From NCBI GenBank assembly GCA_023380995.1, contig JAMCTD010000082.1, forward strand, positions 1 through 9,483: 9,483 nucleotides of DNA, given 5' to 3'. Under the pieces are notes generated by a model. That model was given only the letters and a program-made list of their open reading frames with translations, was not told the origin of the DNA and did no database searches. Of the stretch, positions 1 to 9,483 are shown piece after piece (positions within the stretch are counted from its first letter, which is position 1; the number at the start of each line of letters is the position of its first letter). This DNA comes from Patescibacteria group bacterium (lineage in GTDB: Bacteria; Patescibacteria; Microgenomatia; Daviesbacterales; UBA10151). The position numbers and the translations under genes were made by a program.

Positions 1-608
1 TGATGGTGGAATTTGCCCACCCAAATACCTTTCACATTATCTATCTCTTCTTTAAATGGAGAAATATGCAAAAGGGCATAAATAGCTTTAGCAATATGCA
101 TACCCACATCCCCCTCATAATTGGCTCTGATAACCTGATAGCCTACTGCCTCTAGCATCCTTACCACTGATTCACCGGTTGAAATATTACGCAAATGCCC
201 AATATGAAAAGCCTTATGAGTATTTGGATGGGCAAATTCCACCATCACTTTTTTCTCTTTATTCTTGTCATTAATAACCAACTTTGCTTGTTCTTTATCG
301 CTGGAAATTTTGAACAATTTTTTTAGCAAAACTTCATCACTAATAAAAAAATTAATAAACCCTCCGCCTGCTATTTCTGCCTTTTCCAAATAATCCAATT
401 TACCAATCTTTTGTAAAATTTCATTAGCAATTTCTGTTGGAGATTGCTTACTATCTGCTGATTTTAGTTTAGCAAGCTGCAATGCTATATTCGTAGTATA
501 GTCTCCAAAAGCAGAATTTTTAGGAATAGATAAAACTATATCATTAACCGGATAACCTAAGTCTTTAACTGCTTCTTGAAGATCTTCTAAAATCCGTTGC
601 TTTAACAT
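1..608 (-). CDS. argS: Arginyl-tRNA synthetase, N-terminal third (cut by window edge)
   Basis: Class I aminoacyl-tRNA synthetase that charges tRNA-Arg with arginine in the cytoplasm. I translated this frame by hand: 202 codons are visible from an ATG at 608 and no stop is reached. Residues 1-90 look like the ArgS N-terminal domain that recognises the tRNA D-loop (FGDYTTNIAL near 34-43, GGGFINFF near 81-88). The catalytic domain follows with EFAHPNTHKAFHIGHLRN at 124-141, which holds a canonical HIGH motif (135-138), then ANYEGDVGMHIAK at 162-174. The full protein is usually about 550-600 residues, so two thirds is missing. No Shine-Dalgarno is seen, but a TATGAT hexamer lies 6 bases before the ATG. 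The last seven codons (WVGKFHH) are suspect, because bases 1-28 are an inverted copy of 220-247. The identification is secure; the extreme left end is not. Confidence 0.93.
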   Translation of the reverse strand, partial: MLKQRILEDLQEAVKDLGYPVNDIVLSIPKNSAFGDYTTNIALQLAKLKSADSKQSPTEIANEILQKIGKLDYLEKAEIAGGGFINFFISDEVLLKKLFKISSDKEQAKLVINDKNKEKKVMVEFAHPNTHKAFHIGHLRNISTGESVVRMLEAVGYQVIRANYEGDVGMHIAKAIYALLHISPFKEEIDNVKGIWVGKFHH

Positions 609-717: not shown

Positions 718-1698
718 TTAAAATTTTTCTTGAGTCTTAGATATTCCTAGCAATACTCCAAATAGTACTAGATAATATCCCACCCAAACCACCCAGACTT
801 GCTCCCCCACATACTCCCAGGCAAAAGGCAAAGAGGCAGACAATTCCACTACATAAATAAAATAGGTTAGCAATATATTAACCATCAAACTTAAGGCTGA
901 CCCTAAAATAAGGGCTAAACTGCCCAAAATCATAATAAATGGCACGGTCCAACCCACTAGTAAATTTGTCAATACTCCGATTAAGGATAATTGATGAAAG
1001 TTTTGAATGATAATTGGCATTACCATAATTTGAGCTCCGGTAGTTACAGCCAAATCCTGTTTTATAAATCCAGGCAGAAAACTTAGGGCTCTTTCAAGCG
1101 CCGGAGCCACCGCAATCACTCCCAATGTGGCCAAAAAAGATAATTGAAAGGATAACTCAGTAATCCATTTGGGATTTACTAAAAGCATTATTCCTCCGGT
1201 AACTATCAAAATCCATATTCCGCTCCTTTGCCTGCCAAAAGCTTCAGCACCAAAAACCAGCATCGCCATAACAGCAGCCCGCAAAACTGGAATTTGGGCT
1301 CCGGTAAGCATTGTATAAAACAATATAGCTGCAAAACTTAGCAAAATTGCTGTTTTTCTTCTCAGAAAACCTGACAATCTTAAAACTAAAGCTGCAAGCA
1401 AAGTTAGGTTTTGACCTGAAACAACCACAATATGCAGGGTTGAAGAATCCCTTAAAGCTAGCTTAAACTCACCTGGCAAATCCTTTTTATTTCCCAGCAG
1501 GATTCCAGACAAAAGCTCAGCTTGAGGGGAAGGCAAAACCTCACTGATTCTGTGATCCAAACTTGCACGGATTTTGGGGAAAAGGTCCAAATTTACCTCC
1601 CAACCTCCCTGCTGATACCTAACAAAAAAGATAAGGAGATATAAAATCACTGCTAGAACAAGTGGTAAGTAATTCCAACTAAGCAGTTTATTTATCAT
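718..1698 (-). CDS. comEC: ComEC/Rec2-type DNA uptake channel, minimal form
   Basis: Inner-membrane channel that brings single-stranded DNA into the cytoplasm during natural transformation. The 326-residue product is hydrophobic through most of its length, with about eight to nine likely membrane helices. It carries the Competence-domain signatures: LLSGILLG at 62-69, HIVVVSGQN at 89-97, PVLRAAVM at 137-144 and LSFQLSFLATLG at 182-193. Full-length ComEC is usually 700 or more residues, with an N-terminal OB-like domain and a C-terminal metallo-beta-lactamase domain. Both are absent: the protein starts at the first helix and stops shortly after the last one. The ORF is intact, so this looks like a reduced form rather than a fresh truncation. 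The gene lies downstream of comEA on the same strand but is separated from it by a 208-base gap holding a palindromic repeat. The ATG at 1698 has only a weak AAAGAG upstream. Confidence 0.9.
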   Translation of the reverse strand: MINKLLSWNYLPLVLAVILYLLIFFVRYQQGGWEVNLDLFPKIRASLDHRISEVLPSPQAELLSGILLGNKKDLPGEFKLALRDSSTLHIVVVSGQNLTLLAALVLRLSGFLRRKTAILLSFAAILFYTMLTGAQIPVLRAAVMAMLVFGAEAFGRQRSGIWILIVTGGIMLLVNPKWITELSFQLSFLATLGVIAVAPALERALSFLPGFIKQDLAVTTGAQIMVMPIIIQNFHQLSLIGVLTNLLVGWTVPFIMILGSLALILGSALSLMVNILLTYFIYVVELSASLPFAWEYVGEQVWVVWVGYYLVLFGVLLGISKTQEKF

Positions 1699-1712
1699 AG
1701 TAATTGCTCTTT

Positions 1713-1863
1713 AGGTGGCGAAGTTGCAAGCCAGCCAAAGCAATCTGAATATTTTATGTGCAGATATTTACCATAAAATATTCACATAGCGAGGCTAGAG
1801 AAACCGCTCAATGTTGCAGAAGTTACTAGCCGAGCGGTGCTTTGCGGCTGCGACGAGCCACTT
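1713..1863. repeat. Palindromic dispersed repeat element, copy A
   Basis: This element fills most of the comEA-comEC gap. The left arm (1713-1742) pairs with the right arm (1838-1863): aggtggc/gccactt outermost, then ttgc/gcga (one G-U), agcc/ggct, and aaagca/tgcttt innermost. The interior holds a separate perfect hairpin (1746-1784). A second element with the same layout and similar arm words lies at 8820-8960. Between the copies the paired positions change together (agcc/ggct here, agca/tgct there), which suggests selection on, or inheritance of, a folded structure. It has no coding potential that I can support. It could be a REP- or MITE-like element or a structured leader for comEC; its mobility is inferred only. 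Confidence 0.6.
1746..1784. repeat. Perfect 13-bp inverted repeat inside copy A
   Basis: The arm at 1746-1758 (tgaatattttatg) is the exact reverse complement of 1772-1784, with a 13-base loop. No T-run follows on either strand, so it is not a standard intrinsic terminator. It would form a stable hairpin in a comEA-comEC transcript. Just to its right, two further short stems interleave in pseudoknot order: 1793-1798 with 1826-1831, and 1803-1809 with 1832-1838. Confidence 0.7.
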
Positions 1864-1906
1864 TTGGCCAGATAAGCCACTCTAAAACCATGCAAAGCCT
1901 CACTTT

Positions 1907-2497
1907 TCAATATACCACTATCTGATCCTTAATTTTCTCAAATACAGCCTTGCTGACTGCTTTTTTATTTAACAAATCCTCTGCTGTTTGATATGGCCTG
2001 CCGGCAATAATTTTGGAAGCAGCAACTGGCCCAATACCTGGAAGATTTTCCAAATCAGCTTGTGAAGCCATATTAATATTTACTTTAGACTTAACATTTA
2101 CTCCAGCCACTACCCCACTTTGGCCTGTAGCTCCATTTTCTCCCTTAGCAGGAACATAAACTTTACTCCCATCTGATACCTTTTGTGCCATATTTAAATA
2201 CTTTGATATATATTCCTCATTAGCCTCTTGATTAAACCCTCCAGCTGCTGCAATTGCTTCTTCAATCCTTGATCCATCTTTAAGCTGATAAACACCAGGC
2301 TTAACAACTGCCCCGGACACATCCACAGAAACCACTTTTTGATTCTCAACCAGACTCTCTTTTGGAAATTCCTTGGGCTTGGATTTGTGTAAACCTGAAG
2401 TAAGTATTCCACCCACAATTAAAACTATACCTACTAGAGATAATCCTAAGGGGATTTTAAAGCGGTCAATCTTTTCTCTCCAACCTGCTTCCTCCAT
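1907..2497 (-). CDS. comEA: ComEA-like DNA receptor: membrane anchor, SLBB and helix-hairpin-helix
   Basis: Membrane-anchored double-stranded-DNA receptor of the competence machinery, which holds DNA outside the membrane and hands it to ComEC. The 196-residue product has one N-terminal membrane helix at about 15-34 (IPLGLSLVGIVLIVGGIL). An SLBB/soluble-ligand-binding-like domain follows at about 56-116 (VSVDVSGAVVKPGVYQL), then a Gly-rich linker, then a helix-hairpin-helix domain at about 137-196 with VNINMASQADLENLPGIGP, the typical ComEA signature. Length and domain order match full-length ComEA. The ATG directly follows the upstream gene's TAA with no gap. A GGAG Shine-Dalgarno sits 6 bases before it, inside the upstream gene's last codons, so translation is probably coupled. 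It ends in TGA. comEC follows after a 208-base gap. Confidence 0.93.
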   Translation of the reverse strand: MEEAGWREKIDRFKIPLGLSLVGIVLIVGGILTSGLHKSKPKEFPKESLVENQKVVSVDVSGAVVKPGVYQLKDGSRIEEAIAAAGGFNQEANEEYISKYLNMAQKVSDGSKVYVPAKGENGATGQSGVVAGVNVKSKVNINMASQADLENLPGIGPVAASKIIAGRPYQTAEDLLNKKAVSKAVFEKIKDQIVVY

Positions 2498-2956
2498 TTA
2501 ATTCTCCAGTCTTAATTTTTCCCTGTACTCTTTAACCCACAATTTATAAGCTTTATGCAAATATTCCATACCCCGTTCTGCCATTTCCCTTTTTACTACT
2601 CCACCTGCATGAGGGTATTTATGTAACCTGGGTTGGGTGGATGAAAAACCATGGGCATAATGAACCAATTCGTGGCCAATGGTATGGTCCACCACCTCCT
2701 GAGGGATACTCAAATCTTTAAACATAGAGGTAATAGTAATAGAACTCGACTTGGTCCGCCTGTCTAATTTAATCGAACCTAACCTGTATTTGGCAAACCT
2801 GCCGAATCTAATAAAAACTTTGTTTGCCTGAGGTATATCGGCAAAATACTTTGACCAGATAAAATCCAGCCTGGACAAAAGCCATCTGTTGTCGCGGGGG
2901 AAACTTGTCTTGGGCATAACAAAAATCATTCTATGTGTTTTGAGCTCAAATGTCAA
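2498..2956 (-). CDS. SprT/zincin-like putative metallopeptidase (HExxH)
   Basis: A 152-residue soluble protein with a zinc-metallopeptidase motif, HELVH at 95-99, in the context VVDHTIGHELVHYAHGF. This is followed by HKYPHAGG near 112-119 and a basic C-terminal helix. The layout resembles small SprT-like or related minigluzincin proteins: a short beta region (SSITITSMFKDLSIPQEVV) leading into the HExxH helix. The His residues at 112 and 116 could supply a third ligand, but I cannot assign it. There is no signal peptide or membrane helix, so it is probably cytoplasmic. The substrate is unknown. The start is uncertain: TTG at 2956 gives the full length, while ATGs at 2929 and 2917 are alternatives, none with a good Shine-Dalgarno. 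It begins 2 bases after the fibre gene's stop and abuts comEA, so the three are probably co-transcribed. Confidence 0.7.
   Translation of the reverse strand: MTFELKTHRMIFVMPKTSFPRDNRWLLSRLDFIWSKYFADIPQANKVFIRFGRFAKYRLGSIKLDRRTKSSSITITSMFKDLSIPQEVVDHTIGHELVHYAHGFSSTQPRLHKYPHAGGVVKREMAERGMEYLHKAYKLWVKEYREKLRLEN
2504..2507 (-). promoter_or_regulatory. Shine-Dalgarno of comEA
   Basis: GGAG on the minus strand, 6 bases before the comEA ATG. It is embedded in the last codons of the upstream peptidase gene (CTG GAG AAT TAA). It fixes the comEA start and supports translational coupling. Genes at the head of transcripts in this window lack such a site. Confidence 0.75.
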
Positions 2957-2958
2957 AA

Positions 2959-5760
2959 CTAATCCGGACTTTCATTAATTAGAAACCAATCAAAGGTAAT
3001 ATCTTCTGTAGCAGGCTGGGCAACAGACACAGTAAACTTTTTCCCTGCAGCCTTATTTGTCACAGCCAGCACCAAATTAGTTTCAGAATTAGGCGTAATC
3101 AAAATCCTGGCATTATCCTCAACTTGGGCATTTTCTATATCCACTGATTTTGTGCCTGCTGTAATTTTGCCGCTGCCGGAAATTCTGTTTGCCACTACCT
3201 TAAACGCAGCTACGGTTACTGTTTGCGCCCTCAAATTACCGGCTTTATCAATCGCGACTAATCCGTTAAAGAAATTCACTTGATAAGCCAGCGGGGAATT
3301 TTGAATATAGAGTATCCCGCAGTCTTTATTAACTTCCGAACATACCGGAGAACCAATCACATTCACGCTATTCCCATTTAAAGAAAGCGTCCCGTCAACA
3401 GTCAAATCCCCTGCCACAGTAGTAGCAGCCAACATAGCTTTTCCAAACACGCGCAGTTCTCCTGAGATTTTACTATCTTGGGCTGTAAATAATTTATCCG
3501 ACGATAAAGTACCAGTTACCTTAACTTCTGAAAAACTGGCTGATGAAGTAGCCAGCAGAACATCAGGCGGAGTTAATTTCAGAATATCAATAGGTTCGGC
3601 TGACCTGCTGGCTTCCTGATCCGCTGATCTACTTGCTTGCTTGCTTGCTGACTCATCCAATAAATATTGACTAAGTGAGGCCGGAGCCACAGTTACCCCA
3701 ATTCCCACATTTCCTGATACAGTGTTGCCGGTTGCGGGAGCTGAAAGCCTGGCGATTTCTGCATATTGCTCCTTGACCCTGGATTCCAGACTCTTAACCC
3801 TATCTTCAAGCGACGCTATTGTACCGGCAAGGTCTACAAAATTACTGGTATTAGAGGCAAGACTAGGCCCAACAGAGGCATAATCCGGGTCAGTATTTAA
3901 AGCCAATTGCCCTGAGGCATCCATGTTAAGTGTAGTCGAAGCAACAGCAACAGACGGGTCTAAAACAATTGCGCTGGTTTTAATCTTGGGAACTATCAAA
4001 TTGCCCTGGTCATCCATGGTCAAGGCTGCCAGAAAATTCTTTGGGTCAGCATACGAAACATTGATAAAAACCAAAATCGTGCCGAATTTAACCTTCATAT
4101 CTACCAGATGAGTATCTTTAGAAACAACCGGTTCTCCGGTGAAAAAATCAAGCTGTTCAAGCGCTTGCCCGATAACCGACCCCACTCTTGTGGCCTTCAT
4201 TGCCACTCCGGGAATGGAGGAAGAAGTCAAATAATCGCCAATTTCGACCGGGCCATTTTCGTCTGAAACTTTAACTGGCACTCTACCGGCTAGGGCAACC
4301 GGGATTTTATTGCCAGTCAAATTACTGCCTCCCCCTAAAATAGTCTGCCCTCCTACCAAAAGTCCGGGAGATGCTGAGCGGACTCCGATCATGCCTTGTT
4401 GATAAGCAATACCAGACCTGGTCACTATATTTGCCTGCTTATTCAGCGCGACTATTTCACCAACACCAACACTGCCGTCAGATTGATAAACTTCAGCAAC
4501 ATCCGAACAGTCAGTGGTTGGGCCACTGTTCCAAGATGTATCACCACAACCAAACCTGGCACCGCCTGCAACATCAAGACGGAAAGATGGCACAGAAATA
4601 CCAATCCCCACATTTCCCTGAACCAAAAGCCCGTTAGTAGGAGCTGTATGCACTCCGGCATAGCCAGCACCGATAGTTTGAGCCCCAGCCACTTCCAGTT
4701 TATTAACAGGAGAAGTAATCCCTATCCCAATATTCCCGCCCGAAGTCATCACCACCGGATTAGATGAAGAATTATTTAACTGGAATAATTGTGACGGAGA
4801 AGCCGTACCAATCCCGATGCCGCCCTGAAAAGCCTGCAGCGCCGGCCAGTTATTGGTATGATCCAAGTTTAAAGAAACATCCGCTGTTTTATTATCAAGC
4901 GTTAGAGTCAGTGTTCCGTCAGAGTTAGAAAGAATTGAAATATAGGATGAGGCATTAGTCAAACAAGAAGCGCACCCAACTTGACCGCTTAAAGGGTCTA
5001 AAGTCAAAGGGGTTGTTGCAGACGCAAAAACTATCCTATCCCGGGGATTAGCAGAACTGGTAACCGGATTGCTAGGTGCCATAGTTGGGCTCGGAACAAG
5101 TTGAGTCTGAATACCTAGCACTCCCCGCTGCAAAGCTTCTATTGATTTCACAGTTTCAGCTGCTATCTTTGAAGTTTCATCTATTTTACTTTGCAACGGG
5201 TCTATGTAGGATGCAAAAAACCATCCTGCAGCCAAGATGAATATTATCAATGCCACAGAGAAAGAAATTTTTAACCAGGGAAAAGTAAACTGGGGAACTT
5301 CATGGCTAGACTTAGGAATTTCAACTAAGACTTGGGTTGCTTCTTTGATCTCTTTTTCAGGAACAACTGTTTCAACACCCAATTCTTTCTGTAAACGGAC
5401 AATCTCATCCCTGGTAAATCTCCTTGCTCCGCCTTTGCTGCGCTGGCTTTCTATTAATCCTCTGTTGTCCCAATTTCTTAAAGTGTCCGGAGAAACTTGC
5501 AGGGCTTTAGCTGCCAGAGATACGCTAACCAAACCTTTTTTAGTGCTGGCAAAGGGGCGGATTTCTTTTTTCAGGCTTAATAGCTCAGCTGCGCTGTACC
5601 TCCTGGCGCCCCCAGGTGTCCTTGCCGGCAATAACTTTCCTGCCCTTTCCCAATTTCTTAGAGTATCCGGAGAGATCTGTAAAAATTTAGCAGCTTTTGA
5701 AATAGAAACGAAACTCTTAGCCAAAATGGTTTTATGAATTCCTGGTGATATTTTAGCCAT
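2959..5760 (-). CDS. Double MerR-type HTH, membrane helix and giant fibre ectodomain fusion protein
   Basis: A 933-residue protein with an unusual architecture. Residues 17-65 and 77-127 are two tandem MerR/HTH_17-type DNA-binding domains; both contain SPDTLRNW and GGARR(Y/F). A single membrane helix at about 162-185 (WLKISFSVALIIFILAAGWF) should leave the basic N-terminus inside and the rest outside. A short coiled coil (189-221) and a Pro/Ser linker follow. The ectodomain has fibre repeats of the G(N/G)(I/V)GIG...SP...L.V type at 313-328, 342-357 and 382-397, and another at 683-696. A globular region at about 415-570 (DVAEVYQSDG, VALAGRVPVKV, IGDYLTSS) resembles domains of phage-tail-like and surface fibre proteins. 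A second coiled coil lies at 644-672, then a Ser/Ala-rich hinge (703-722) and a beta-rich C-terminal domain ending ITFDWFLIN. I see no S74 autoprotease motif. It leads the peptidase-comEA group. Its function is unknown: a surface-sensing regulator or a DNA-tethered fibre are both possible. The frame is continuous, so the fusion is real in this sequence. Confidence 0.88.
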   Translation of the reverse strand: MAKISPGIHKTILAKSFVSISKAAKFLQISPDTLRNWERAGKLLPARTPGGARRYSAAELLSLKKEIRPFASTKKGLVSVSLAAKALQVSPDTLRNWDNRGLIESQRSKGGARRFTRDEIVRLQKELGVETVVPEKEIKEATQVLVEIPKSSHEVPQFTFPWLKISFSVALIIFILAAGWFFASYIDPLQSKIDETSKIAAETVKSIEALQRGVLGIQTQLVPSPTMAPSNPVTSSANPRDRIVFASATTPLTLDPLSGQVGCASCLTNASSYISILSNSDGTLTLTLDNKTADVSLNLDHTNNWPALQAFQGGIGIGTASPSQLFQLNNSSSNPVVMTSGGNIGIGITSPVNKLEVAGAQTIGAGYAGVHTAPTNGLLVQGNVGIGISVPSFRLDVAGGARFGCGDTSWNSGPTTDCSDVAEVYQSDGSVGVGEIVALNKQANIVTRSGIAYQQGMIGVRSASPGLLVGGQTILGGGSNLTGNKIPVALAGRVPVKVSDENGPVEIGDYLTSSSIPGVAMKATRVGSVIGQALEQLDFFTGEPVVSKDTHLVDMKVKFGTILVFINVSYADPKNFLAALTMDDQGNLIVPKIKTSAIVLDPSVAVASTTLNMDASGQLALNTDPDYASVGPSLASNTSNFVDLAGTIASLEDRVKSLESRVKEQYAEIARLSAPATGNTVSGNVGIGVTVAPASLSQYLLDESASKQASRSADQEASRSAEPIDILKLTPPDVLLATSSASFSEVKVTGTLSSDKLFTAQDSKISGELRVFGKAMLAATTVAGDLTVDGTLSLNGNSVNVIGSPVCSEVNKDCGILYIQNSPLAYQVNFFNGLVAIDKAGNLRAQTVTVAAFKVVANRISGSGKITAGTKSVDIENAQVEDNARILITPNSETNLVLAVTNKAAGKKFTVSVAQPATEDITFDWFLINESPD
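3632..3649. repeat. CTTG tetranucleotide run in the fibre gene
   Basis: Four and a half exact copies of CTTG on the plus strand, encoding the ESASKQAS part of the hinge at about residues 703-710. The neighbouring bases (3601-3630) encode the near-duplicated ASRSAD/ASRSAE peptide. Gain or loss of one unit would shift the frame and remove the C-terminal 230 or so residues, as in phase-variable surface genes. The copy number is low, so this is a possibility only. Confidence 0.6.
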
Positions 5761-6303
5761 AAATCTTATGAAAAAGTTAGGAAAAAATTAGTACTATAAT
5801 CACTAAAACACACCTTAAATTTCTTGTCAATATATCATCTTAAATAAAAGTTGGTTTGCAAAATTATTACTTTCGTTTTGCCCAAAGTTATGAAAAATCT
5901 TTAGAAATAAATCCTAAAATAAGCAGCAGCAGATAAAAATAGACTTGGTCAAATCCACAAGTCAAAACTTTTGATTAATTTTACCCACAACAAGACTTAA
6001 CATAGAAACCGCAAGGCTTAAAATCAAGCCGGATTAAAAGATAAGCAGTTCTTTTGATAAAAACTAACTTTTCCGTCAAAATAATTAAACACAAAGTAAA
6101 ATAGACTGTAAATACCAGAGCTAAACAAAAGAAGAATATCTTGATATAGCAATCTAAAATGCTTCAAAAAAAAATTAGCAGTTAACTCTTATAATTGCCA
6201 AACTAATATTTGGCGAAACTTTTGAGGCTAAACAAAAAATGACAGCTGCAAAACCAATCAATTAGACATTAACACCCTAATGATAAAACTGCCAGGCTGG
6301 GGG
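5761..6303. other. AT-rich 543-base gap between leuS and the fibre gene
   Basis: No gene is supported here: both strands have frequent stops. The left end holds the promoter of the fibre gene. Elsewhere I see only short inverted repeats: gacttg/caagtc at 5942-5963, ggctt/aagcc at 6015-6030 and gccaaa/tttggc at 6197-6214. None is followed by a proper T-run, so no terminator for leuS can be called with confidence. An A9 run at 6169-6177 gives a T-run on the minus strand but has no GC stem next to it. Confidence 0.6.
5802..5830 (-). promoter_or_regulatory. Promoter of the fibre-peptidase-comEA group
   Basis: On the minus strand there is a perfect -35 TTGACA (5830-5825), a 17-base spacer and a -10-like TTTAGT (5807-5802, 4 of 6). 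Transcription would start near 5795, giving a leader of about 35 bases before the ATG at 5760. A TATAGT lies 9 bases further downstream and is an alternative -10. The spacing is the usual 17, not the 19-20 typical of promoters activated by MerR proteins. I see no clear Shine-Dalgarno. Confidence 0.55.
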
Positions 6304-8769
6304 TTAAACTACGATGTTTATTACCTTGCCCTGAACATACACAATTTTTTTCACAGGCTTTTCTGCCAAAAATTTCTGGATTTTTTTGCTTTCCAGAGCC
6401 ATTTTTTCTACTACCTCTTTATTACCTACCATATCTTTTTGTATCATCAAAACATCCCGTACTTTACCATTGATTTGAGCAGCAACTACAAACTCTGTTT
6501 CCTGCAAATACTGGTTATCAAACTTTGGCCAAGACTGCTGATGAATGGAGGAGTTATCAGCTTTCAGACTTGTTTTGTCTGACGACTGAGGGCTGATAGC
6601 TGACGACATTAACATCTGCCACAATTCCTCTGTAATGTGCGGAGCAAATGGAGCCAGGATAATTAGGAACTTCTTCTTTTGCTCTAAAGTCAAAAGCTTG
6701 TGATAACTTAAGTTAATAAACTCCATCATTGAAGCTATCGGGGTGTTAAATTTCATGCTTTCAATATCACGGCCAACCTTTGCACTGAGTTTATTAAGGG
6801 CAACCTCTATTTTATTATCAACAAGCGCGGTATTCTCCTTATTCATAACCTCCCAAACCCGGGTTAGGAATTTATAAACACCATTTATACTGGCCGGATC
6901 CCAAGAGATCGTATTTTCAAATGGCCCCATAAATCCTTCGTAAAGACGCAAGGCGTCTGCTCCGTATTCATCAATTATTTGATTTGGGGTTACCACATTA
7001 CCCAATGATTTGCTCATTTTACGACCGTCAGAAGCTAAAACTAAACCAACACCGGAAAGTTTCCAAAAAGGCTCAGATGTGGATACAGCGCCTATTTCAT
7101 ATAGAACTTTATGCCAGAAACGCGAGTAAAGGAGGTGAAGCACTGCATGCTCTGCTCCGCCAATATACCAATCAACCGGCATCCAATACTTTTCTTTTTC
7201 TTTATCGACTAACGCCTTATCATTTTTAGGATCAATAAAGCGCAGGTAATACCAACAAGAACCTGCCCACTGAGGCATGGTATTAGTTTCCCTCTTGGCC
7301 GGGCCACCGCATTTTGGACAAGTTGTGTTAACCCAATCCAAAATTGCAGCCAGAGGCGACTCTCCGGTTCCGGTAGGCTCATATTTTTCAACATCAGGCA
7401 ATTTTAAAGGTAACTGATCTTCCGGTATGGCAACTACGCCACACTTCCTGCAATGCACTAGTGGAATAGGCTCTCCCCAATACCTTTGCCTGGAAAAAAT
7501 CCAGTCACGAAGATGATACACAGTAACCCTTTTTCCCCATCCCTTTTCTTCTAAATAATCCATTATTTTGGTTGCTGCTTTGTGAATATCCATCCCATCC
7601 AGAAACTGCGAATTAACCATAACCCCTTCTTCCTCTTGCACTTGCTGGGCTCTGGCAATAACAGATGTATCGTTGTCTCTACCAGTAACTACCCTGATAA
7701 TCGGCAGGTTAAACTCTTTAGCAAATTCAAAGTCGCGGATATCGTGACCAGGTACGCCTACCACTGCTCCTGTCCCCACATTACCTAATACAAAATCGCT
7801 CACCCAGATAGGAAGCTCTTTGCCATTTAAGTTGTTAAGTGCGTAACTCCCGGTAAAAACTCCTGTTTTAGCTCTTCCCTGGGCAATTCTTTCTTCTTCA
7901 GAACGGTTAGTGGTTTTAGCAATATAGTCCTTAACCTCATCTGAATGCTCTTTTTGGGTGATTTTGGTTATAAGAGGATGCTCGGGGCCAATTACTATGA
8001 AAGTTGCCCCAAAATTGGTATCAGGCCTGGTTGTAAAACAAACCACCTCTTCCTTGCTATCTTTTACTTTATAGGTGATATTTATCCCCTCTTTTCTGCC
8101 AATCCAATTAATCTGCATATCCTTAATTGATCTGGGCCAATCTAAATGCTGCACCCCTTCCAGCAACTGATCTGCGTACTCAGTAATCTTTAAAATCCAC
8201 TGCCTTACTAATTTCTTCTCAGTTTGGGTCCCGCAACGGTCGCATTTACCATTAACAACTTCCTCGTTAGCCAAGCCTGTTTTATCTTTGGGACACCAAT
8301 TTATGGCCGCTTCGTCTTCATAAGCCAGGTCTTTTTCAAAAAGCTTCAAAAAAATCCATTGAGTCCATTTATAATAGTTTGGATCGGTTGTATTAATCTC
8401 CCTGTCCCAATCGTAGGAAAAACCTGTAATTTTCATTTGCTGACGGATGGTGTTGATATTGTTTGCTGTAGTAATAGCAGGGTGTACACTAGTTTTGATG
8501 GCATAGTTTTCGGCAGGCAAACCAAAAGCATCCCAACCCATTGGATGCAAAACATTAAATCCCTTCATCCGGAAGTAACGGGCTAAAATATCAGAGGAGG
8601 TATATATTTTAAAATGACCTACATGCAAGCCATCACCTGAAGGATACGGAAACATGTCCAGAATATATTTTTTAGACTTAGGTGAACTATCAGGAGTCTT
8701 ATAAATTCCACTCTCCTCCCATTTTTTCTGCCACTTAGGCTCAATTGCGCTTGGAATGTATTTCTTCAT
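6304..8769 (-). CDS. leuS: Leucyl-tRNA synthetase
   Basis: Class I synthetase that charges tRNA-Leu with leucine in the cytoplasm and edits mischarged tRNA. The 821-residue length is normal for bacterial LeuS. Seen in order: the catalytic start with PYPSGDGLHVGH (42-52, the HIGH-type motif is HVGH); a zinc-type knuckle with CPKD...CDRCG (159-179); the CP1 editing domain with TTRPDT (246-251) and VGVPGHDIRDFEF (338-348); a second Cys cluster CRKCG...CPKCGG (440-489); DWYIGGAEHAVLHLLYSRF; KMSKS (584-588); and the anticodon-binding and C-terminal domains. The editing Asp of HDxRD is kept, but the usual AVPAHD is GVPGHD. Residues 722-740 are a Ser-rich insertion encoded by heptanucleotide repeats. 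The ATG at 8769 has no Shine-Dalgarno; a good promoter lies so close that the mRNA may be nearly leaderless. It is the first gene of the minus-strand block and is probably transcribed separately from the fibre group. Confidence 0.98.
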   Translation of the reverse strand: MKKYIPSAIEPKWQKKWEESGIYKTPDSSPKSKKYILDMFPYPSGDGLHVGHFKIYTSSDILARYFRMKGFNVLHPMGWDAFGLPAENYAIKTSVHPAITTANNINTIRQQMKITGFSYDWDREINTTDPNYYKWTQWIFLKLFEKDLAYEDEAAINWCPKDKTGLANEEVVNGKCDRCGTQTEKKLVRQWILKITEYADQLLEGVQHLDWPRSIKDMQINWIGRKEGINITYKVKDSKEEVVCFTTRPDTNFGATFIVIGPEHPLITKITQKEHSDEVKDYIAKTTNRSEEERIAQGRAKTGVFTGSYALNNLNGKELPIWVSDFVLGNVGTGAVVGVPGHDIRDFEFAKEFNLPIIRVVTGRDNDTSVIARAQQVQEEEGVMVNSQFLDGMDIHKAATKIMDYLEEKGWGKRVTVYHLRDWIFSRQRYWGEPIPLVHCRKCGVVAIPEDQLPLKLPDVEKYEPTGTGESPLAAILDWVNTTCPKCGGPAKRETNTMPQWAGSCWYYLRFIDPKNDKALVDKEKEKYWMPVDWYIGGAEHAVLHLLYSRFWHKVLYEIGAVSTSEPFWKLSGVGLVLASDGRKMSKSLGNVVTPNQIIDEYGADALRLYEGFMGPFENTISWDPASINGVYKFLTRVWEVMNKENTALVDNKIEVALNKLSAKVGRDIESMKFNTPIASMMEFINLSYHKLLTLEQKKKFLIILAPFAPHITEELWQMLMSSAISPQSSDKTSLKADNSSIHQQSWPKFDNQYLQETEFVVAAQINGKVRDVLMIQKDMVGNKEVVEKMALESKKIQKFLAEKPVKKIVYVQGKVINIVV
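6553..6607. repeat. Heptanucleotide repeats and hairpin inside leuS
   Basis: On the plus strand, four period-7 units run from 6579 to 6606: ctgacga, ctgaggg, ctgatag, ctgacga. Just to the left, 6553-6567 carries similar units in inverse orientation and is a 12-of-15 reverse complement of 6586-6600, so the whole can fold back. It encodes the LeuS insertion SAISPQSSDKTSLKADN. Similar heptads (ctgataa, ctgaatt) lie at 8789-8802. Confidence 0.7.
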
Positions 8770-9251: not shown

Positions 9252-9280
9252 TTGACCTTTACAAAAGTATGTTGTATTGT
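9252..9280 (+). promoter_or_regulatory. Promoter of the secreted-protein gene
   Basis: TTGACC at 9252-9257 (5 of 6 to the -35 consensus), a 17-base spacer and TATTGT at 9275-9280 (4 of 6). The ATG begins 7 bases after the -10, exactly where transcription should start, so the mRNA would be leaderless. No Shine-Dalgarno is seen. Confidence 0.6.
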
Positions 9281-9286
9281 GTAATT

Positions 9287-9483
9287 ATGGTTAGATCTTT
9301 CCTAATCCGAACAATACTATATTTAACCCTATTTACCCTTTACGCTGTACCCTTTACGCTGTACCCTTCCTTTACACACGCTCAAAGTGAGGGAATTGAA
9401 GTTACCTCTGTTTATGAAGTAACAGACACAGATGCTGTCCAGGGAGACATATTAAAAGTGACTGACAAAGGTCTTGTCCTTTG
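9287..9483 (+). CDS. Secreted protein of unknown function, N-terminus only (cut by window edge)
   Basis: I translated this by hand: 65 codons from ATG at 9287, open to the window end. Residues 1-31 form a signal peptide: a basic start (MVRSFLIR), a hydrophobic core (TILYLTLFTLYAVPFTLY) and a likely cut after THA before QSEG. The mature part begins EGIEVTSVYEVTDTDAVQGDILKVTDKGLVL. Its GDI(L)..TDKG pattern recalls the DVAEVY...VGVGEIVALN stretch of the fibre protein at 2959-5760, so it may belong to the same broad class of surface proteins; this is an inference from a short segment. The signal peptide is built partly on a 14-base tandem repeat. No other identity can be given. Confidence 0.75.
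   Translation, partial: MVRSFLIRTILYLTLFTLYAVPFTLYPSFTHAQSEGIEVTSVYEVTDTDAVQGDILKVTDKGLVL
9334..9368 (+). repeat. 14-base tandem repeat in the signal-peptide coding region
   Basis: Unit taccctttacgctg is present twice exactly (9334-9347, 9348-9361), with a partial third copy to 9368. Because 14 is not a multiple of 3, the two copies are read in different frames (FTLYAV, then PFTLYPS), and both give hydrophobic peptide. Gain or loss of one unit would shift the frame. Confidence 0.85.

Follow-up and report, generated by a model that had tools for sequence, protein, structure and literature searches.

What would a bacterium do with the DNA-binding end of a transcription factor that is joined, in one reading frame and through the membrane, to a phage-like fibre? 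The question is raised by a gene in a 9,483 nt stretch of DNA (contig JAMCTD010000082.1 of assembly GCA_023380995.1; "the window" below means this whole stretch) from a Patescibacteria group bacterium of the Daviesbacterales UBA10151, a tiny uncultured organism. The gene encodes a protein of 933 amino acids (aa) that carries MerR-type heads at its N-terminal end, followed by a hydrophobic helix and a long fibre-like remainder. Arguing from the sequence, we propose that this fibre with two MerR/BldC-type heads, which is predicted to cross the membrane once, probably controls the gene that encodes it by binding direct repeats in the promoter.

DNA-binding heads and upstream repeats

Three MerR families of Pfam match the protein (PF00376, E 5.7e-23; PF13411, 3.1e-18; PF12728, 6.1e-16), each in two stretches and every one above its curated cut-off, which bears out the two MerR-type domains of the original prediction; the single uninterrupted frame that it described also holds over all 933 codons, from an ATG start and with no stop. 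The layout of classical MerR proteins, in which a dimerisation coiled coil and a soluble effector follow the head, is absent, and a hydrophobic helix and fibre domains are found instead. Neither Trans_reg_C (the OmpR type) nor the RodZ-type HTH_25 is among the Pfam matches of the protein at E≤0.1.

BldC, a MerR-like regulator of Streptomyces (PDB 6amk, 6ama), is the closest solved sequence to the heads, with E 7e-5 to 1e-4 by sequence and 4.8e-7 (6amk) when a profile of 21 homologues is used. In these homologues the heads are the best conserved regions, with a mean pairwise identity of 79% for head 1 and 73% for head 2, compared with 52% in the linker between them, 28% in the segment before the helix, 32% in the helix and 24-66% in other regions (stalk 40-47%, middle domain 58%, tip 66%). 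The BldC residues that hold DNA include Thr27, Trp31, Arg47 and Arg48, with Arg30 contacting bases (PMC5859096; this and the other papers cited by PMC number are drawn on in part). All ungapped rows of the 21 homologues keep the equivalents of Thr27, Trp31, Arg47 and Arg48 unchanged in head 1 and head 2 alike, and the equivalent of Lys33 is Lys or Arg in all copies of head 1 and in 17/21 of head 2. Since these DNA-holding positions are kept while the equivalents of Arg30, His46 (Ala in 21/21 and 20/21) and Lys26 (Asp) differ, the heads look like working DNA binders that read a different sequence from BldC.

Candidate sites for such reading lie directly upstream. Forty stretches were taken for frames of at least 400 aa in genomes of the order of Ca. 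Daviesbacteria, and the 42 headed genes analysed are those of the fetched stretches together with the window and its relatives L001 and L002, minus L155, a 2260-aa frame whose head precedes the first start codon and which was omitted from the topology, repeat and class analyses. L084 (a 798-aa frame of G001) and most frames below 400 aa were left out, and several of the 42 frames end at a contig or stretch edge. Operator-like repeats of one of two types stand upstream of 23 of the 42 genes, the window's gene among them, and the tandem-repeat score reached p≤0.05 for 17/42 headed genes compared with 7/77 other open reading frames of the same loci (Mann-Whitney p 3.5e-6; 60 shuffles).

The two types are defined by at most three mismatches to CHTAASTTTTTCHTAASTTTT (class A) or to CAAATCTATGYAAATCTATGTA (class B). 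Class A comprises seven genes, those of the window, L001, L002, L126, L127, L131 and L160, in which TTGACA, present in the other six genes as in the window, is followed by 11-bp CATAACTTTTT-like repeats, mostly at the start codon or within 15 bp of it. The repeats reach the start codon in the window, L001, L002 and L131, the last having three near-perfect copies that end at the ATG, and stop ~11-14 bp short of it in L127 and L160. A 29-base stretch of the window's repeats is identical in L001; used as a pattern with up to seven mismatches, it was found among the loci scanned only upstream of L001, L002, L131 and L127, plus shorter copies. The original prediction had sought the binding region at 5795-6303, a narrow miss, as the repeats lie at 5791-5758.

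Sixteen of the 42 genes belong to class B, and 15 of these have a single head; the class shows two 10-bp CAAATCTATG copies directly after TTGA, in the position expected of the spacer between the -35 and -10 elements. Across the 45 genomes of the order the class B pattern gave 23 matches, compared with one for the reversed pattern, and a MerR head is no more than 400 bp away from 22 of the 23, or from 19 of 20 distinct places, in a count based on 71 head rows that left out most frames below ~100 aa. Because the pattern was drawn from the promoters of known headed genes, what is tested is that the rest of the ~45 Mb lacks it; of the 19 places, three (in G009, G021 and G040) were not in the set that defined it.

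Repeat class and head type agree. The recognition helix of the first head reads R-N-W in 7/7 class A genes and R-R-W in 16/16 class B genes, against a background of 13 R-N-W and 29 R-R-W among the 42 (Fisher p 6e-5 and 5e-4, from rows that are not independent), and two genomes, G002 and G007, hold one class A and one class B gene each. Class B heads share 69% mean identity, compared with 24% in the segment up to the helix, and of 120 pairs of class B ectodomains 92 show a match, which in only 39 extends over more than half of the shorter partner; on these figures class B is a constant reading part with a changing outside part.

A further feature was noted around the start codons of class B genes. 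Those of L238, L239, L236 and L225 have an inverted repeat within ~40 bases of the ATG, often with GCAGACGG before it and CCGTCTG after it; the inverted repeat over the ATG has a folding z below -2 in 11/19 genes, and altered yet pairing sequences occur in L225, L235 and L236. A second, RNA-level control of class B genes is possible. The window's gene has no ATG-spanning fold (z 0.67), and an RNA element sought in the leader gave no Rfam match at gathering scores in the window or L001.

Homologues, membrane topology and fibre domains

The fusion recurs. A search of 5.8 billion proteins returned 553 matches, and among the best 120 of these, 20 homologues (P0002-P0021) carry heads and fibre in one frame at 95-100% query coverage; in P0003 and P0008 the predicted start falls inside head 1. 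The named entries among them are two, both Candidatus Daviesbacteria, and MerR-type matches were found in 21/21 homologues at E≤0.1. Neither of the findings that would have spoken against the fusion, halves split between separate genes in relatives or a frameshift or misassembly at the junction, occurs among the homologues. Full-length relatives are present in two Daviesbacteria genomes, at L001 and L002; P0020 and P0021 are these two proteins. A query with the head region only returned 35 proteins at E≤1e-5, the query counted (proteins of 0.55-1.75 times its length), and a hydrophobic segment follows the head in 42/42 headed protein records, the window's own counted (threshold 1.6). A genome scan with the window protein P0001 alone as query gave no match, and the head of one giant protein matched only that giant.

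Long frames of this kind form a class in the lineage. MerR_1 matches occur in 44/45 genomes of the order, and among the matches listed no fewer than 37 frames with a MerR head reach 600 aa, spread over at least 25 of the 45 genomes; at least 16 frames reach 2000 aa, the longest listed having 4511 aa. Headed genes have one or two heads. Across the phylum as a whole, a sample of 69 genomes had frames of at least 600 aa, at E≤1e-5, in G001 and in two other genomes (2524 and 8840 aa), and in two control sets the longest frames had 523 aa (104 MerR_1 matches in 25 genomes from the phylum to which L011, an Aminicenantes record, belongs) and 477 aa (107 matches in 16 genomes from that of L004, a Bifidobacterium record). 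Long MerR-headed frames are therefore special to the Daviesbacteria lineage among the groups tested. Two further frames stood out: the 8840-aa frame contains the MerR match L188 (G090:C7:612402-612533) and shows no hydrophobic helix within the 576 N-terminal residues available, and L184 (G067:C2:142402-142956) is a 539-aa frame with three heads.

The one membrane helix of the original prediction was confirmed as a hydrophobic segment: residues 165-183 of the window protein (Kyte-Doolittle 2.38) are its sole segment at 1.8 or above. A hydrophobic segment lies within 200 residues of the last head in 39 of the 42 headed genes, the three exceptions being frames of 422-560 aa, and is the only one at a threshold of 1.8 in 38 of these 39, in the portion covered. 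The layout of a transmembrane one-component regulator, with a DNA-binding domain and a membrane helix in one chain, is present by sequence. The orientation is less certain: counts of Lys and Arg flanking the helix favour an inside N terminus in 23/39 genes, with 10 reversed and six tied, and the predicted arrangement is heads inside, fibre outside and one membrane crossing.

The ectodomain of about 700 residues that had been called a fibre is fibre-like as proposed, but proved composite, consisting of a stalk, a middle domain (residues ~417-570) resembling the C-terminal domain of phi29 gp12, a coiled coil and a tailspike-like tip (residues ~855-930). GNVGIG-type motifs occupy residues ~311-415, with a second set near 680, and the best solved relative of residues 309-361 by sequence alone is the Bdellovibrio fibre Bd2133, a weak match (E 7e-4). 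This match, beside a low-confidence model of the stalk, bears on a possible trimeric beta-prism fibre with capping loops. Structure models built from 21 rows were poor, with a mean predicted local distance difference test (pLDDT) score of 46; the 44-row version (62.5) was used, in which the stalk remains unmodelled. Comparison of structure models gives the middle domain a predicted gp12-like fold whose first aligned pair is 420:692, and Asp420 and Glu423 are kept in 117/117 ungapped rows of a 125-row alignment. We do not claim these two residues as catalytic; among the titles listed on gp12 cleavage chemistry, none concerned catalytic residues. At E≤0.1 the window protein P0001 matches neither PF11962 (Peptidase_G2) nor the S74 domain PF13884; PF11962 is precomputed for the distant matches P0071, P0080 and P0090. 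An equivalent middle domain was also seen in P0026 and P0027, where the fibre is preceded by an N-terminal part with an intein-like C-terminal splice motif, for example HNFLANNIVAHNT (by eye), and for which PF14890 is precomputed.

Proposed regulation and its alternatives

In the regulation that we propose, the heads would sit inside the cell and bind the promoter repeats of their own gene while held at the membrane, each head contacting one 11-bp repeat. As such a repeat is about one helical turn, the two heads of one chain, or those of a trimer, would line up along a single face of the DNA; BldC is arranged likewise on 9-bp direct repeats (PMC5859096). Repression is predicted for the window's gene because its repeats lie between the predicted -10 element and the start codon, so that fibres already in the membrane would hold down further fibre synthesis. 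Classical MerR regulators bind in the -35/-10 spacer, and since class B repeats take this position either sign is possible there. Folding of the fibre, contact with another cell or self-cleavage at Ser419-Asp420 might then alter the arrangement of the heads and release the gene. More tentatively, and with rather more doubt than hope, we suggest that the result would be a one-gene closed loop from surface to genome, in which the state of the fibre (assembled, cut or cell-bound) sets its own transcription and matched pairs of head and operator run several fibres separately.

Several observations weigh against binding of the heads to their own promoters. Arg30, the base-contacting residue of BldC, is replaced by Asn in 19/19 rows of head 1 and 18/21 of head 2, and the repeats are spaced 11 bp (class A) or 10 bp (class B) apart, compared with 9 bp in BldC. 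By the simple score 25/42 headed genes have no significant tandem repeat, and 19/42 have neither repeat class at three mismatches or fewer; these 19 may rely on different operators or do without. Of the two patterns, that of class A is the weaker and more AT-rich, giving 39 matches compared with 20 reversed at up to two mismatches, and nine matches at seven places, four of them two-head genes, at up to one mismatch. The only one-head gene among the seven of class A, L126, has its three-mismatch match 5' of TTGACA, away from the start codon, and the one class B place without a head, L221, precedes a headless frame with a hydrophobic segment (by eye). As to topology, Lys and Arg counts tie in the window (2 vs 2; net charge 0 vs -2), and among the 20 direct homologues P0002-P0021 five favour an inside N terminus, 10 are reversed and five tie. 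Finally, class and head type may co-vary through shared descent, which explains part of the match between them, so that the match is support and not proof.

Other explanations assign the heads or the repeats a different part. The repeats could be bound by another protein, such as a separate small BldC-like one, with the heads serving for protein contact or sorting as the helix-turn-helix of RodZ does. A BldC-like gene of 70-78 aa does lie ~4-22 kb from the headed gene in L249, L251 and L252 (the L252 copy was scanned with Pfam), and the loss of Arg30 from the window's heads would fit; however, the recognition helix of the small protein, SPLTIKRW or SALTIKRW, is unlike both head classes, a single small protein does not explain two head-matched repeat types within G002 and G007, and the wing arginines of the heads are invariant in the 21 homologues, which together leave this explanation rather unlikely. 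Unlikely too, in our estimation, is a DNA anchor in place of a switch, in which the heads would fasten their own gene or the nucleoid to the membrane, by transertion of the large fibre or as a mechanical tie-down; a tether to the nucleoid was the alternative offered by the original prediction. There is a precedent in RacA, a MerR-like protein that ties the chromosome to the pole, but the repeats occupy parts of promoters (from the predicted -10 element to the start codon, or the -35/-10 spacer), which is a regulatory position, and a general nucleoid anchor needs many sites, whereas the class B pattern occurs 0-2 times per genome, almost solely at fibre genes.

A further alternative is that proteolysis, following an event outside the cell, would cut the head loose to act as a soluble regulator. 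In its favour, the segment from head 2 to the helix is poorly conserved (28% identity) and likely flexible (pLDDT below 50 at residues 133-160). The gp12-like domain could, judging from its model, cleave itself, but its site is on the predicted outer side and would free the fibre and not the head; we think release of the head improbable. An error of assembly or annotation that joined a regulator gene to a fibre gene found no support and is extremely improbable: misassembly and split halves are ruled out by the 20 one-frame homologues and by the helix after every head record, and L001 and L002 hold full-length relatives in a related place.

Known systems, gene neighbourhood and minor observations

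The original prediction likened the protein to the one-component membrane regulators ToxR and CadC. The layout stands, as in all of them a single chain runs from a DNA-binding domain at the N terminus through one membrane helix to a C-terminal domain, and is supported by the conserved heads, the several contact positions kept and the repeats upstream; that surface contact would alter DNA binding is pure inference. ToxR and CadC have DNA-binding domains of the OmpR type and small sensor domains outside, whereas the window protein has MerR-type heads, a phage-like fibre of ~700 residues (thousands in relatives) and, as predicted target, its own gene. The likeness to BldC lies in the MerR-type winged helix with equivalents of its Thr27, Trp31, Arg47 and Arg48 and, as far as can be told from sequence alone, in direct repeats about one helical turn apart, which BldC reads and the window's gene has upstream. 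The window protein differs in its two heads per chain, the change of Arg30 to Asn, its 11-bp repeats, its membrane helix and its fibre, BldC having 68 residues, no further domains and 9-bp repeats (PMC5859096). The window protein also has a membrane helix and a fibre, which RacA is not known to have.

Among fibres, the mature phi29 gp12* tassel ends at residue 691 (PMC6542822), and its cleavage domain is C-terminal and shed; in the window protein the corresponding domain is in mid-chain, with more than 360 residues after it, and cleavage is putative. Bd2133 shares the GNVGIG-type repeats of the window protein and belongs to the MAT fibres, which Bdellovibrio, a bacterium that attacks others, displays on its surface (PMC10769870). 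In the parts of that paper drawn on here no DNA-binding head is mentioned for MAT fibres, and S74, which marks one of their two subfamilies, was not found in the window protein. Transmembrane regulators use more than 100 types of DNA-binding domain, among which the MerR type may be included (PMC10269533, in part), and the main text of a report on giant membrane proteins of a predator of the Candidate Phyla Radiation (CPR) makes no mention of MerR or DNA binding in the portion drawn on (PMC8080830). We found no description of a MerR-headed transmembrane fibre in the literature searched, in a search that was not exhaustive; this agrees with the earlier statement that no protein of this kind had been characterised, transmembrane regulators with other DNA-binding domains being well known.

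How CPR bacteria sense a partner cell is, to our knowledge, an open question. Many of them are thought to live on other cells, and most are uncultured (PMC8080830, in part). A fibre bearing its own DNA-binding head, together with a matching operator, would serve as a directly testable sensing device with no need of other genes. It would join three known parts, BldC-like DNA reading, ToxR-like topology and a phage-fibre ectodomain, in a combination not described in the literature searched, and dozens of natural variants allow head, operator and ectodomain to be compared. It also explains the database name "MerR family DNA-binding transcriptional regulator" on proteins of 899 and 3392 aa in one genome.

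Table 1. Coordinates of the fibre gene, its parts, its upstream elements and other genes (window positions unless a locus is named)
Feature	Position	Strand	Basis or remark
MerR-headed transmembrane fibre, 933 aa	2959..5760	-	ATG start, no internal stop
DNA-binding head 1, MerR/BldC type, residues 18-66	5563..5709	-	Pfam; BldC 6amk profile match
DNA-binding head 2, MerR/BldC type, residues 78-128	5377..5529	-	Pfam
Single predicted membrane helix, best 19-residue window 165-183, within predicted continuous helix 162-217	5212..5268	-	
Stalk, GNVGIG-type motifs, residues 311-415	4516..4830	-	Sequence and Bd2133 match; low model confidence
Middle domain, residues 418-571, phi29 gp12 C-terminal domain fold (predicted)	4048..4509	-	Structure model
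Ser419-Asp420, putative self-cleavage site, equivalent to gp12 691/692	4501..4506	-	Structure alignment and conservation
Predicted coiled coil, residues 644-673	3742..3831	-	One long helix in single-chain model
C-terminal tip, residues 856-930, phage tailspike C-terminal fold (predicted)	2971..3195	-	Structure model
Class A direct repeats, three 11-bp units: 5791-5781 CTAATTTTTTC, 5780-5770 CTAACTTTTTC, 5769-5759 ATAAGATTTAT	5759..5791	-	
TTGACA, predicted -35	5825..5830	-	17 bp ahead of weak predicted -10 TTTAGT, 5807-5802
Leucyl-tRNA synthetase (LeuRS), 5' neighbour	6304..8769	-	Pfam; equivalent place in L001 by eye
SprT-like, ComEA-like and ComEC-like genes, 3' neighbours	718..2956	-	Pfam; SprT weak, E 0.039
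Separate BldC-like gene of 70-78 aa beside ribosomal L10/L12-like genes (by eye)	L249 3028-3237; L251 1126-1356; L252 603-836		

L001 has the same gene order as the window, LeuRS, fibre gene, SprT-like, ComEA-like, ComEC-like and arginyl-tRNA synthetase (ArgRS), with ArgRS and the L001 genes assigned by eye; in L002 the fibre gene adjoins LeuRS on the opposite strand, and the SprT-, ComEA- and ComEC-like genes lie past LeuRS (by eye). A phage origin of the gene was considered and rejected: two viral contigs matched, weakly and in the head region only, and in the window and L001 the gene sits among LeuRS, ComEC-like and ArgRS (by eye). Between LeuRS and the fibre gene the window has a 543-bp AT-rich gap (5761-6303); the gap in L001 is of similar length, and the two are alike only near the start codon (by eye).

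Two extensions of the repeat classes were likewise set aside. Class A is not taken as a wider regulon, as its additional sites are near chance level; the three places at up to one mismatch that lie away from headed genes are L203, inside a frame, and L195 and L211, which have no frame of at least 80 aa starting 3' on the strand. The L195 site adjoins an apparent T-box leader (by eye). In 286 genomes of the phylum the class B pattern matched eight, two of which are the order members G042 and G045; given that the other six matched at three mismatches and that the reversed pattern gave five matches, occurrences outside the order are regarded as chance.

At the right-hand end of the window, 9269-9483 (plus strand, running off the end) is the start of a secreted-looking protein. 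It has full relatives at L001 1727-2542 (-), L252 15519-16337 (+), L253 3261-4190 (+) and L251 3408-4220 (+), which precede genes resembling those for ATP synthase b, delta, alpha and gamma (by eye). The L001 copy carries the middle domain of the fibre (E 2.7e-18), and its last part is a hairpin in which a c-subunit-like stretch, AKGIEAIGRNPLA, seems to lack the acidic residue usual there (by eye). The Pfam c-subunit family matches none of the four copies. One possibility is a protein akin to ATP synthase subunit c that has a domain outside. In L251, L252 and L253 (G002, G042 and G007) class B fibre genes lie just past ATP synthase-like genes that follow or are near LeuRS (by eye), so that in the genome of the window, too, a class B gene may follow beyond position 9483.

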